From contig JAURGZ010000001.1 of NCBI GenBank assembly GCA_030833525.1, positions 1 through 64,000 of the forward strand: DNA of 64,000 bases, written 5' to 3'. A program made the position numbers and the translations under genes. How positions within the stretch are numbered: position 1 is the stretch's first letter; every line of letters starts with the position of its first letter. This DNA is from Bacteroidota bacterium. Its GTDB lineage: Bacteria; Bacteroidota; Bacteroidia; NS11-12g; UBA955. Below are positions 27,590-58,504 of the stretch, one piece after another. The notes beneath the pieces are model-generated. The model was not told where the DNA came from. It worked only from the letters and a program-made list of their open reading frames with translations, and did no database searches.

Positions 27590-27615
27590 GAGGAATTTCT
27601 TCCCTTTCGGGGGTG

Positions 27616-27623
27616 CAAATATA
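27616..27623 (-). promoter_or_regulatory. Promoter -7 box (TATATTTG) of tRNA-Val
   Basis: Exact TAnnTTTG match on the minus strand, 26 bases before the mature tRNA 5' end; leaves room for a short 5' leader removed by RNase P. Confidence 0.6.
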
Positions 27624-42115: not shown

Positions 42116-42150
42116 TTGTTCCCCACCTCTCAGGGGTCAATCTATATTTG
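42116..42150 (+). promoter_or_regulatory. Promoter of the act (alternative complex III) operon
   Basis: TTG at 42116-42118 and TATATTTG at 42143-42150 have consensus Bacteroidota spacing. An imperfect 13-bp palindrome ACCTCTCAGGGGT (42125-42137) lies in the spacer and could be an operator. The leader is about 25 bases. Confidence 0.75.
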
Positions 42151-42179
42151 CAGTGCGAAAAACCCCTTCGTAATCACAC

Positions 42180-53415: not shown

Positions 53416-54750
53416 CTATTGCCGGGTTTGAAGATGGGCGATGTGGTATTCGCCTAATTTCATTCCCTGATCGCGTCCATGAACGATGGCATCGCGAAAG
53501 TGAATGCCTCCGTACAAACGGCTGAAGCAAGCTTCTTTGGCCGCTGCATGGAAATTGGCAAATGCTCGCGTTCCCAGTCCAAACTCCATTTCAGCGCTGT
53601 CAATGTAGCTGACTTCACCAAAAATATCGGTTAGAATGGTGGCGGCTGCACCAGATACCACACTGTGTGCACTGGGGTACTCAGGAAAAGAGGGTGTTTG
53701 AATGGCGGGAGACCAAGCCGAATCCCAATGGTTGCGAATGACGGTCTCAGGCCGAATGTACTCGTATTTGTATTTGGCTTTGAAAGCCATGATGAAGGCA
53801 TCGTACACAGCTGCAGACAATCGAACCATGCCTTCAGCCGATTCCATAAGAGTCAAGTGTTGGTTGCGCGCAACGGTGCTGTAAGTGGAAAGCCAATGAC
53901 CCAAAGGACTCACTTTCAATATGTTGATGGTGGCATGGCCGTAATGTACGGTGGCATTTGGGTTGTCGTCCCAGTATTTAGCCATGCGCAAGCCATTGCT
54001 GTCCAAATGAGAAACCGTGTCTTTTACTTCTTGTGCCTGCATCATGTAAGCCGAAGTTGGATCGGTTGAATAGGGTGCCGGTCCTGGCAGGGGAATGAAT
54101 TCAGCATCGGGAGCCAAGCTAGGCCTGATTTTGCCCCAGTTGGGTTCTACCGCGTCTGAAAAGTTGGGAGAGGTGGGTTGCCAGTATCCAGGAGCATTCT
54201 TGGCGAGGTAATATTCCTTGCCTCGGTAGTAGTTAAAAGAGTCGCTTTTTGACCATTCGACAATTTGTTTGCCTACTTCTTCTCCCCATGCCACAGAATT
54301 GTTGAACACTTTGGAACTCAATTGCTTTTTGTAGAAGGCGAGTTGCCGGTCTCTGAAATTGGCAATGCTGTCTTCTTTGTAGACCAAGGCCTTAGATGTA
54401 TAAGTATGGGCAGCTATGGCCACCAAATCCAAGCAAAAATCTTGACTGGTGTCCAAGCTTAGGTTTAGGGCGGGCAAATCGTGCAACTGACCGGCTAGGC
54501 TTTTTTGTTCAGGATAAAACGGCACCAATGATTCGTAAGCCGCGACGGCAGCATAGAAATAACGACGTCCACCCACGGGAGGGGGAACACGGTCTACTAC
54601 CACTGCATTTTGAATGGCGATGTTGCAATCGCTCAGGGCATCGTGGTTGAGAATAGATCGGTGTTCAGTAGGTTCTTGGTTGCAACTGGGCGCTAAAAAT
54701 GCCGCGCTCATGGCTAACAATAGGCCTAATCTGTATTGGAATTTCATCAT
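53416..54750 (-). CDS. Vanadium-dependent haloperoxidase / PAP2-type lipoprotein
   Basis: A 444-residue lipoprotein (signal peptide with lipobox APSC; MMKFQYRLGLLLAMSAAFLA). The C-terminal half carries the phosphatase/haloperoxidase vanadate or phosphate pocket: KYKYEYIRPETVI (Lys...Arg-Pro), FPEYPSAHSVVSG and SRLYGGIHFRDA with the catalytic His. It belongs to the VCPO-like group; whether it is a haloperoxidase or an acid phosphatase cannot be told. In Bacteroidota such genes often neighbour FG-GAP/ASPIC proteins, as here. Starts 54750 and 54747 are both possible. Confidence 0.85.
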   Translation of the reverse strand: MMKFQYRLGLLLAMSAAFLAPSCNQEPTEHRSILNHDALSDCNIAIQNAVVVDRVPPPVGGRRYFYAAVAAYESLVPFYPEQKSLAGQLHDLPALNLSLDTSQDFCLDLVAIAAHTYTSKALVYKEDSIANFRDRQLAFYKKQLSSKVFNNSVAWGEEVGKQIVEWSKSDSFNYYRGKEYYLAKNAPGYWQPTSPNFSDAVEPNWGKIRPSLAPDAEFIPLPGPAPYSTDPTSAYMMQAQEVKDTVSHLDSNGLRMAKYWDDNPNATVHYGHATINILKVSPLGHWLSTYSTVARNQHLTLMESAEGMVRLSAAVYDAFIMAFKAKYKYEYIRPETVIRNHWDSAWSPAIQTPSFPEYPSAHSVVSGAAATILTDIFGEVSYIDSAEMEFGLGTRAFANFHAAAKEACFSRLYGGIHFRDAIVHGRDQGMKLGEYHIAHLQTRQ

Positions 54751-54773: not shown

Positions 54774-54801
54774 AAAAAAGGCCTCAGCAATCGCTGAGGC
54801 C
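54774..54801 (-). terminator. Terminator of the 49-aa gene
   Basis: A 9-bp stem GGCCTCAGC/GCTGAGGCC (54780-54788, 54793-54801, loop AATC) followed on the minus strand by six T. Confidence 0.9.
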
Positions 54802-54836
54802 CTATTTGAAATTTGGTTTCGTTCTAAATTGCAGGA

Positions 54837-54986
54837 TTATGCCTGGTCTTCGATCACGATTCCTGACTCGCCTTTGTAGGGAGACTGAATCTGAACGAAC
54901 GTCTTAAGGCGCTTGATATCAGCAACTCGCTTAGAAGAGCGGCTGCGGTTTTTTGCTTCTTTTCTTTTCAAACGTGTAACGGCCAT
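54837..54986 (-). CDS. Small basic protein of unknown function (49 aa)
   Basis: A 49-residue open frame starting with ATG at 54986: MAVTRLKRKEAKNRSRSSKR then VADIKRLKTFVQIQSPYKGE and a short acidic end. The N-terminal part is very basic, as in nucleic-acid-binding or ribosome-associated small proteins; short Bacteroidota proteins with similar N termini (MAVTRLKRK...) exist as I recall, but I know no function. It has its own TATATTTG box 15 bases upstream and a strong terminator downstream, so it is independently transcribed. It sits between the haloperoxidase-like and FG-GAP genes on the same strand. Confidence 0.7.
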   Translation of the reverse strand: MAVTRLKRKEAKNRSRSSKRVADIKRLKTFVQIQSPYKGESGIVIEDQA

Positions 54987-55001
54987 AACCTTATTTTGGT
55001 G

Positions 55002-55009
55002 CAAATATA
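55002..55009 (-). promoter_or_regulatory. Promoter -7 box (TATATTTG) of the 49-aa gene
   Basis: Exact TAnnTTTG match on the minus strand, 15 bases before the ATG and just beyond the stop of the upstream FG-GAP gene. Confidence 0.6.
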
Positions 55010-55012
55010 GGG

Positions 55013-58000
55013 TCAATTCTTTACTGTGTCAAGTGTTTTGCCTTGAGCATTCACGAATTCTACCTTTTCCACGCTGGGATTGATCCAAACCCCAGGATAC
55101 GAGCTGCTGAGATAGCCATTGCCTGCACTCAAATTGACCTTTCTTTTGCCACCAACCTTCAGATAAACCCAAGCGTGTTGCGCATCTTTAGGTGCTCGTA
55201 AAAATCGATGAGTGCTTTTGGGACTCATGAAACTCAGCGCTTTGTTGTCGTTTTGGCCGGCCAGGAAAATAGGGCCGCTGGTACCGGGGACCACCAATAA
55301 ACTGCGTCCGTCACCCGGAACATAAAAGCCGCATTGGGCCCCATTTTCTGCAATCCACTGGGTTGGAGATTCTTGCTGATTCCACAATACAAAACCATTC
55401 AGGGCATCGTCCTTTCCGTGTTGGACTCGGGTAGAAGCATTGTTTCCAATGGCTAGAATATCTTCGAATCCGTCGGCATTCAAATCCAGGCTGGCCAGGC
55501 CATATAAAGGACCTGCTTGCGTCTCCCAAGGAAGCGATTCAATTCTGAATTTCCCACCCTCATTGACGGCCACAAAGTGGTCAAAATAATTGGCCAACTG
55601 ATATCGTTCCAGGTTTTCTTGGCCGAATATTTCCACAATGTCTTTGTTCGCGATGTCTTTGTAGGTGGTGAAATGCTTATTCATGAAGCCGGGATAAGCC
55701 CTAGCCATCTCCTCGAGTTGATACAGGGTATATTCCTTGCCTTGGCGCACTTTGCCAAAGAACATATCCATGCTGCCGTTTTGATCCAAATCGGTGTAAT
55801 ACACCTTCAAGGGTTCTTCTTGGGTAGCTTGTATGAAACTGTTTCGACCCTTATTGCCCACGACCACATCCAGATCTCCGTCGTTGTCAATGTCAATCGG
55901 CAATAGGCTATTGATCCAACCCGAATGCTGATCCAGGCCCCAGCTGGCGGTCGCGTTTTCAAAGCCATTACCCTTGTTGAGCAGCAGCACCAACGGGGTG
56001 TATTCCCCCGCTAATAACAAATCGAGTTTATTGTCTCCGTTGCAATCAGCAAAGGCGGCGGTGCAAACCATGCCTGCATTCGCCAGGGCAGGATACCAAG
56101 CTGAAGTCACATCGGTGAATCGACCTTGATCGTTTCTCAACAGGTAACTGCGAATGTCAATTTGGGGGTAGAAGCCAGGCATGACTCGGCCACCCACGAA
56201 CAGGTCCCAATCTCCATCGCCGTCCATGTCTCCCGAGATGACACAGGAGCCGCTGTTGAGCACGCGCGGAAGTCGCTCGCTTTGGTTGCTGAATTCACCA
56301 CGGCCATTGTTGATGTATAAGCGGTGAGCATACTGATCACTGGGCCAAGAATATTCGCTTCCACCTGCAGCCACGTAAAAATCAAGGTCGCCGTCGTTGT
56401 CAGCATCAAAGAAAAGGCATCCTGTAATGTCGACGTCCATGCCTTGCAACAGGGATTGTGCAGATTGCGCTTTGAACCGGCCACTTTTGTCTTGAATGAA
56501 GAAACTGGCTGCAGGTGCCTGATTGGGAACCCCGGTTCGGGCATTGGCAATGAAGATGTCTTCCAAACCGTCGCCATTGATGTCACCACTGCACATGCCA
56601 GGGCCGAGTCGTGTAAAACGATGGGGTAGCAAGGGCTCGCGTTTGAAATCGGGGTTTTCTTGTTCGCGGTGCCAGAATTCCAAGCCCAAATCAGCCGCCG
56701 TGAACCATTGATCACCTTGTTTTTCTCGGAATTCGCGTGGCTGTGCCTTGTCGTCGGTAACGGTCCAGAATCCTGAAGTTGGAATTTCTGAACTGCTCCA
56801 AGCACTTCCGTTGGGGAAAAAACAAACCACACTGTCAACCTGTACAGGGCTGATGAACAAACAGGGTTGTGAAGAACTTTGGTAGCCATGGGCCGAATTG
56901 AGCTCCATGATTTGTGTTTGATTGCCCCTGTGAATCAAAACTTTGGTTCCATAGCCCATGCGATTGCTCTTGCTCAAATTGAACTGGAGCTTGACCAAAG
57001 TGGGCTTGGGATTCAGGTTGTTTTGGTAAACCGACAATGGAGAACCTTGGTTGCAAATGATCAAATCAGCATCGCCATCTCCATCCAAATCTCCGTAAGC
57101 TGAACCGGTGCTCAAAGAGGGTTCTTCCAAACCCCAAGTTTCGGTGACTTTCTCAAATCCTTTACCTTTTTGGTTGAGGAAGGCATAGTTGCTGATCTTT
57201 TCAAAAGGCAACATGGACAAAAGCTCTTCATGCGTAACCCCTTTGCCCTCTTGCTGTTGTTTTCGGTTTTGAAACAGCATGAAGTCTTGGTCGGTAACGT
57301 CGCGGTAATAGCCATTGGTGATGTGCAAATCTTGGTAACCATCTCCGTCAAAGTCTACGAACAAGGGCGACCAACTCCAATCAGTTCTCGCGATGCCGAA
57401 TAAATAAGCTTCATCGCTGAATGCACCTTGCCCGTGGTTGATCTGCAGGGCGTTTTTCATATACTGATACCCATAGCCATTTTTAAAGCCCACCATGGTG
57501 TAGTCGTAATCTTTGGGCCCTCCCATGGTCATGAAACGGCGCTGGTCATCGGCGAGCATATCGACCGATAGAAAATCGAGTTTTCCATCGTTGTTGATGT
57601 CAGCTTGGTCGCTGCCCATGCTGTTGTTGCTCGTATGCTTGAAGCGTTGCGCATTTTCATCGACAAACCCACCCTGTTGGTTATTGATCAGCACGTAATC
57701 AGGAACATGGTAGTCGTTGCAGACGTATATGTCATCCCATCCGTCGGCGTTGATGTCAAAAACAGTAGCACTCAGTGCATACCCCATTGCTTTTACTCCC
57801 GCTTCTTCACTCACATCTTGGAAATGCCCGCCATCGTTTCGGTATAAATGCTGTTGGCTGTTGTCGTCCAATCGAAAGGTTTTGCTAAAACGAATGTCGA
57901 CATCGCTGAAAAACCGATCGGCGTGATTGGCCACATACAAATCCAAGTCGCCATCTCGATCGTAATCCAAAAAACTAGCCGTTGTGGCATTGCCTGGGTC

Positions 58001-58504
58001 ATCCAATCCATAGGCCTTGGCTTCTTCTTTGAAATTCAAGTTTCCCTGATTGACGAATAACAAATTCCTTTTTTTATCTCCATTTTGCGATGGCCCAGAT
58101 CGGCACACATAGATGTCCAATAAACCGTCGTTGTTGACATCGGCAAAACTCACACCTGTGCACCATTCAGAGGTGCTAACACCAGCGGCCTCTGTGATGT
58201 CTTCGAACTGCATGTTACCCTTGTTGCGATACAGTCGCGATGAACTTGAATTGCCGCTTACGAATACTTCGGGTAAGCCATCGTTGTCCAAATCACCAAT
58301 GCCTACACCATTGCCGTTGTACAAATAATGGTAGGTGAACTGGTTGAGGCTATCGTTTTCGGGAACTTCATTGGTGAAATCAATCCCCGTTTCGCTGGGA
58401 CTGAGCAGTTCAAAGCGACCCTCTAAAGACGGTGAACAACCTTGCATGCTCAACAGTCCCAGTGCCAGGGTACTGAGCAGGATGTGGGGTATATGTAGCT
58501 TCAT
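55013..58504 (-). CDS. FG-GAP/VCBS-repeat lipoprotein with two ASPIC/UnbV-like modules
   Basis: A 1163-residue lipoprotein (MKLHIPHILLSTLALGLLSM then QGC lipobox). It has numerous FG-GAP (integrin-type) repeats with Ca2+-binding DxDxDG loops (GIGDLDNDGLPEVFV, SFADVNNDGLLDIYVCR, FVDFDGDGYQDLHIT, YGDLDGDGDADLIIC, SGDINGDGLEDIFIA, ISGDMDGDGDWDLFVGG, PIDIDNDGDLDVVVG). A central ASPIC/UnbV-like domain has GYGTKVLIHRGNQTQIMELN and HGYQSSSQPCLFI; the C terminus repeats this (NGYLSSSYPGVWI). Beta-propeller and Ca2+-binding predictions are family knowledge; the ligand is unknown. Commonly paired with haloperoxidase-like genes. Confidence 0.88.
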   Translation of the reverse strand: MKLHIPHILLSTLALGLLSMQGCSPSLEGRFELLSPSETGIDFTNEVPENDSLNQFTYHYLYNGNGVGIGDLDNDGLPEVFVSGNSSSSRLYRNKGNMQFEDITEAAGVSTSEWCTGVSFADVNNDGLLDIYVCRSGPSQNGDKKRNLLFVNQGNLNFKEEAKAYGLDDPGNATTASFLDYDRDGDLDLYVANHADRFFSDVDIRFSKTFRLDDNSQQHLYRNDGGHFQDVSEEAGVKAMGYALSATVFDINADGWDDIYVCNDYHVPDYVLINNQQGGFVDENAQRFKHTSNNSMGSDQADINNDGKLDFLSVDMLADDQRRFMTMGGPKDYDYTMVGFKNGYGYQYMKNALQINHGQGAFSDEAYLFGIARTDWSWSPLFVDFDGDGYQDLHITNGYYRDVTDQDFMLFQNRKQQQEGKGVTHEELLSMLPFEKISNYAFLNQKGKGFEKVTETWGLEEPSLSTGSAYGDLDGDGDADLIICNQGSPLSVYQNNLNPKPTLVKLQFNLSKSNRMGYGTKVLIHRGNQTQIMELNSAHGYQSSSQPCLFISPVQVDSVVCFFPNGSAWSSSEIPTSGFWTVTDDKAQPREFREKQGDQWFTAADLGLEFWHREQENPDFKREPLLPHRFTRLGPGMCSGDINGDGLEDIFIANARTGVPNQAPAASFFIQDKSGRFKAQSAQSLLQGMDVDITGCLFFDADNDGDLDFYVAAGGSEYSWPSDQYAHRLYINNGRGEFSNQSERLPRVLNSGSCVISGDMDGDGDWDLFVGGRVMPGFYPQIDIRSYLLRNDQGRFTDVTSAWYPALANAGMVCTAAFADCNGDNKLDLLLAGEYTPLVLLLNKGNGFENATASWGLDQHSGWINSLLPIDIDNDGDLDVVVGNKGRNSFIQATQEEPLKVYYTDLDQNGSMDMFFGKVRQGKEYTLYQLEEMARAYPGFMNKHFTTYKDIANKDIVEIFGQENLERYQLANYFDHFVAVNEGGKFRIESLPWETQAGPLYGLASLDLNADGFEDILAIGNNASTRVQHGKDDALNGFVLWNQQESPTQWIAENGAQCGFYVPGDGRSLLVVPGTSGPIFLAGQNDNKALSFMSPKSTHRFLRAPKDAQHAWVYLKVGGKRKVNLSAGNGYLSSSYPGVWINPSVEKVEFVNAQGKTLDTVKN

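Follow-up and report, generated by a model that had tools for sequence, protein, structure and literature searches.

The window, a stretch of 64,000 nucleotides from a Bacteroidota bacterium contig, carries on its minus strand a gene with an ATG start for a basic protein of 49 amino acids, MAVTRLKRKEAKNRSRSSKRVADIKRLKTFVQIQSPYKGESGIVIEDQA. The small gene lies between two much larger genes of the same strand, for an FG-GAP repeat protein upstream, whose stop codon occupies positions 55013-55015, and for a haloperoxidase-like protein downstream (Table 1). In an earlier note on this DNA, these flanks had been described as two secreted-protein genes, and this is supported by Pfam matches for both and by lipoprotein-type signals as judged by eye. 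Both genes flank the small gene in nearly all relatives from the window's family in which the contig reaches far enough, and their conservation as neighbours is confined to that family. In the assembly containing the window (G000, about 94% complete), the gene for ribosomal protein uL14 was not found, and that part of the genome is thus probably missing.

Table 1 Features of the small gene and its surroundings. Positions refer to the window; for the helix-hairpin-helix tail, locus identifiers are given instead.
Feature	Position	Strand	Basis and remarks
49-aa basic protein gene, ATG to stop TAA	54837..54986	(-)	Translation; conserved single copy; 12 silent versus 1 amino-acid-changing codon within the genus
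Codons 5-28, predicted basic helix with most of the nearly invariant block VTRLKRK..N	54903..54974	(-)	AlphaFold2 and conservation
Codons 35-43, SPYKGESGI motif of the C-terminal half	54858..54884	(-)	Alignments; coil of low confidence in the model
-7 promoter box TATATTTGC	55001..55009	(-)	TAnnTTTG kept upstream of homologues
-33 TTG, inside the end of the FG-GAP gene	55030..55032	(-)	Alone not above chance
Intrinsic terminator AGGGCCTCAGCGATTGCTGAGGCCTT, followed by T run	54778..54803	(-)	Comparable hairpin and T run after most relatives' genes
Downstream neighbour, PAP2/vanadium-haloperoxidase-like lipoprotein	53416..54750	(-)	PF01569; context, not a family member
Upstream neighbour, FG-GAP/ASPIC-UnbV repeat lipoprotein	55013..58504	(-)	PF13517; context, not a family member
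Helix-hairpin-helix tail (L21 of G082, four f2 small proteins, G024 remnant)	L216-L219, L206/L220, L114 (6001 onward)

Between the window gene and that of a relative from the same genus, 13 codons differ, only one of which changes the protein, and none of the differences falls on a second codon position. Judged by this codon comparison, strong purifying selection maintains the reading frame and extends over the entire amino-acid sequence. One copy of the gene was detected in 36 of the 38 relatives searched, and exactly one copy in each of the 32 relatives with a completeness of at least 90% and no more than 5% contamination. The earlier note had proposed a genuine 49-residue gene and had suggested a search for homologues with its MAVTRLKRK start; the frame and this start are indeed kept in every near-complete relative searched, and the start was found far beyond these, across many families, with the reading frame conserved.

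The wider distribution was assessed with sequence profiles. With a profile built from the close relatives, other families of the class were matched at the N-terminus, and the profile broadened by these matches had strong hits in 92 of the 396 Bacteroidia genomes sampled, some of them from Cytophagales (counted at E <= 3e-6; 11 further genomes with E > 0.002 were left out). When the phylum as a whole was sampled, strong matches (E 1.5e-13 or better) were confined to the class Bacteroidia, and no convincing member was found outside of it, the best match there having an E value of 0.003. Carriers known by name include Pontibacter, Fulvivirga, Marinoscillum and Jiulongibacter. The gene was not found in the sampled genomes of genus g24, nor in many other Bacteroidia. 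Since the L21 of one g24 genome (G058) differs from the Flavobacterium johnsoniae chain 7jil_R in only 1 of 101 residues, this genus is Flavobacterium or very close to it. These absences imply that the small protein is not universally needed. We regard the gene and the family as certain.

Members of the family are 45-60 residues long. Their residues 1-13, with the consensus MxVTRLKRKxRxN, are nearly invariant; R8 and K9 are identical in all aligned members, and V3, T4, L6 and K25 are near-invariant. The protein has a pI of 10.7, with 12 K/R and 2 D/E among residues 1-28. In the AlphaFold2 model, a single helix is predicted for residues 5-28 (pLDDT of 85-95 for the nearly invariant block), followed by a coil of low confidence. 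The C-terminal half is not basic and comes in clade-specific versions. In the order of the window it reads SPYKGESGIILED, and a related form with SPNK or SPYK occurs in families f68 and f87; the SPYKGESGI motif is retained by the window's order and by two more families, and others have a different sequence in its place. The respective half reads KPVIKNVDVEELKASF in Cytophagales and ELGSRSxxxxxxQIAKNNAVL in family f3.

The box TATATTTGC, a -7 element of the Bacteroidota type, is separated from the ATG of the small gene by 14 bp. This 9-mer occurs three times in the window compared to 0.28 expected by chance, the other exact copies being located at 27615-27623 on the minus strand and 42143-42151 on the plus strand. 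The TTG at -33 lies 20 nt upstream of the box, and the full pattern TTG-N20-TAnnTTTG, at 55002-55032, is found once in the window versus 0.98 times expected and is thus not above chance. The promoter stands out from chance through its conservation: at 69 of 78 homologous loci taken from public genomes, TAnnTTTG is present in the 60 bp preceding the gene, in most cases at a distance of 23-28 bp from the ATG, compared to 3.1% of background 60-mers. As far as can be judged from the motif, the promoter fits a strong housekeeping type in nearly all lineages. The terminator hairpin consists of 11 pairs, 7 of which are G-C. Accordingly, the -7 box and the strong terminator that the earlier note had assigned to the small gene both hold, and similar elements accompany most of its relatives. 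The independent transcription claimed on their basis holds only in part, since no terminator was detected in a scan of the region that separates the small gene from the FG-GAP gene, which makes read-through from the latter possible, and since in family f3 the gene appears to share its transcript with a tRNA.

In this family, a tRNA-Cys gene is located directly upstream of the small gene on the same strand at 11 of 11 loci (L033-L043), and the -7 box precedes the tRNA-Cys gene in all four loci inspected, which implies one transcript for both. Such an apparently common promoter and transcript of a tRNA and a protein gene represents an uncommon mixed tRNA-mRNA unit. At loci L018 and L019, genes for tRNA-Gly and tRNA-Leu directly follow the small gene on the same strand, and in 16 loci, all or nearly all from Cytophagales, the small gene is arranged head-to-head with hisS. 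Since the contexts differ in other lineages, the association with translation genes is recurrent but not tied to one fixed operon; placement of the small gene in a ribosomal protein operon was not seen in any clade inspected.

Synonymous codon choice of the small gene, analysed in 20 genomes, was far closer to that of the ribosomal proteins of the S10 region than to that of the neighbouring genes. The summed log ratio was +37.9, compared to expectations of -76 +/- 13 for background and +66 +/- 11 for ribosomal-protein usage. The z-score was above background in 20 out of 20 genomes with a pooled z of 8.7, a value inflated by the kinship of the genomes, and the pooled codon value stayed below the full ribosomal-protein bias (z of -2.3). 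Composition is controlled in this analysis, as the null was simulated with identical amino acids. Codon bias is a proxy for high expression and not for function. The earlier suggestion that RNA or ribosome binding would suit the basic N-terminal half gains indirect support from this codon usage, from the linkage to tRNA genes and hisS and from the predicted basic helix.

In four genomes of family f2, the small protein bears an additional helix-hairpin-helix tail of 82 residues. A homologous tail is found on the L21 of a genome without the small gene (G082), and the L21 of the f2 carriers is tail-less; genome G024 has a broken remnant of the tail behind the stop codon of the small gene. NCBIfam models matched by the tail include those of L21 and S2, but also of NuoE and phasin. 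A membrane-anchored coiled-coil protein of about 225-290 amino acids in f2 ends in the same tail (L222-L228). In view of this protein and of the NuoE and phasin matches, the tail is not ribosome-specific and counts as supportive evidence only.

The co-transcription with tRNA-Cys, the pairing with hisS, the codon usage resembling that of ribosomal proteins and the L21-like tail make a role of the small protein in translation likely. The best single reading, towards which the sequences and the structural model incline us, is that the small protein belongs to the ribosome of Bacteroidia, either as a lineage-specific ribosomal protein or as an assembly factor bound tightly to it. In such a scenario, a strong housekeeping promoter of its own would drive production of the small protein, its basic N-terminal helix (residues 5-28, carrying most of the MxVTRLKRKxRxN block) would dock in a groove of the rRNA, and the C-terminal half would run as an extended strand or tail over a neighbouring ribosomal protein or rRNA. 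This latter contact may be less constrained, and the C-terminal half would have diverged or been replaced between clades for this reason. The rRNA binding, the ribosomal location and the structural role are all inferred. We lean only slightly towards the more specific proposal that only part of the Bacteroidia have the protein as a ribosomal component, its N-terminal helix being fixed and rRNA-binding and its C-terminal half having been exchanged between clades, so that ribosome composition would vary between major groups of the class.

Some of the same evidence could also be accounted for by a non-stoichiometric translation factor, i.e. a small protein for hibernation or rescue, or a chaperone of rRNA or tRNA, bound to the ribosome or tRNA under certain conditions only. 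Linkage to tRNA genes and hisS and a basic helix would be expected of such a protein, and accessory factors are often missing from some lineages, but the housekeeping-type promoter box and the near ribosomal-protein codon bias fit constant high production better, and no known factor family was matched in Pfam or NCBIfam; we therefore consider such a factor unlikely. Still less probable is a function in RNA or DNA binding unrelated to translation, for example as a nucleoid protein of small size or as an RNA chaperone. DNA or mRNA would also be bound by a short basic helix that carries a flexible tail, and the K/A/P-rich tails of some members resemble those of nucleoid proteins, but the repeated, independent linkage to tRNA and tRNA-synthetase genes and the L21-like tail speak against it.

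The order small gene, terminator and haloperoxidase-like gene, which is conserved in the window's family, would also suit a leader peptide or attenuator that governs the haloperoxidase-like gene via the intervening terminator. We reject this very improbable reading, as the protein is conserved without that downstream gene: in other lineages, the small gene precedes unrelated genes or tRNAs, and selection acts on the amino-acid sequence over the full length. Short open reading frames are common in any sequence, but a chance frame is contradicted by the conservation of this one across many families and by the predominantly silent changes in it, and for a non-coding RNA gene, no Rfam family reached the gathering score at the locus; we give these two possibilities practically no weight.

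The preferred reading as a ribosomal or tightly ribosome-bound protein would add to what is known of Bacteroidia ribosomes, in which the anti-Shine-Dalgarno sequence is sequestered (PMC9976891) and of which bL38 is a further unusual feature. The small gene is missing from the genus that supplied the solved Flavobacterium ribosome. If the small protein is ribosomal, the Flavobacterium ribosome model misses a component for much of the class, including the cultured Cytophagales Pontibacter, Fulvivirga and Marinoscillum. Because of the short length of its product and the lack of a Pfam or NCBIfam model, the gene is easily missed by annotation; the conserved profile makes the family findable and directly testable. 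The neighbours and the codon usage of the gene suggest that the family is an overlooked and previously undescribed small part of the protein-making machinery.

In comparisons with known proteins, neither the window protein nor the family members were credibly matched by a family in Pfam, NCBIfam or PHROGs, three family profiles found no credible chain in the PDB, and searches of the literature, by sequence and more widely, found no paper on such a protein. One known protein of similar character is bL38 (DUF4295, PF14128), a Bacteroidota-specific protein of the 50S subunit that was recognised only once a Bacteroidota ribosome had been solved; it is discussed in PMC10618245. Like bL38, the small protein has about 50 amino acids and is basic, single-copy and restricted to Bacteroidota, but the two have no sequence similarity. 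Identity with bL38 was rejected, since there was no DUF4295 match in Pfam and the window's genome has a separate bL38 gene (G000:C29:11027-11167), which matches chain 4 of PDB 7jil, the chain named L38; bL38 was present in 14 of 14 genomes searched, some of them from lineages without the small protein. Another similar case is the ribosomal protein bS22 of Flavobacterium, Borrelia and mycobacteria, which is very small, very basic, helical and often overlooked by annotation (PMC10618245). The small protein shares these four properties but differs in its non-basic C-terminal half, and Flavobacterium has bS22 (PMC10618245) but lacks the present family. No match to bS22/COX24_C (PF08213) was obtained in Pfam, which weighs little as PF08213 itself misses the Bacteroidota bS22, and no PDB chain matched the family profiles. 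With the tailed bL21, the small proteins of the four f2 genomes share the homologous helix-hairpin-helix tail, but the core domains are unrelated and most family members are tail-less. In ArfA-type rescue factors, a basic tail at the C-terminus serves the mRNA channel, and the transcript stops short of the stop codon. This type was rejected as well, since the basic residues of the small protein lie in its N-terminal part and its terminator is located only after the stop codon. In its general features, the protein corresponds to a lineage-specific small ribosomal protein, being small, strongly basic, encoded in single copy and vertically conserved.
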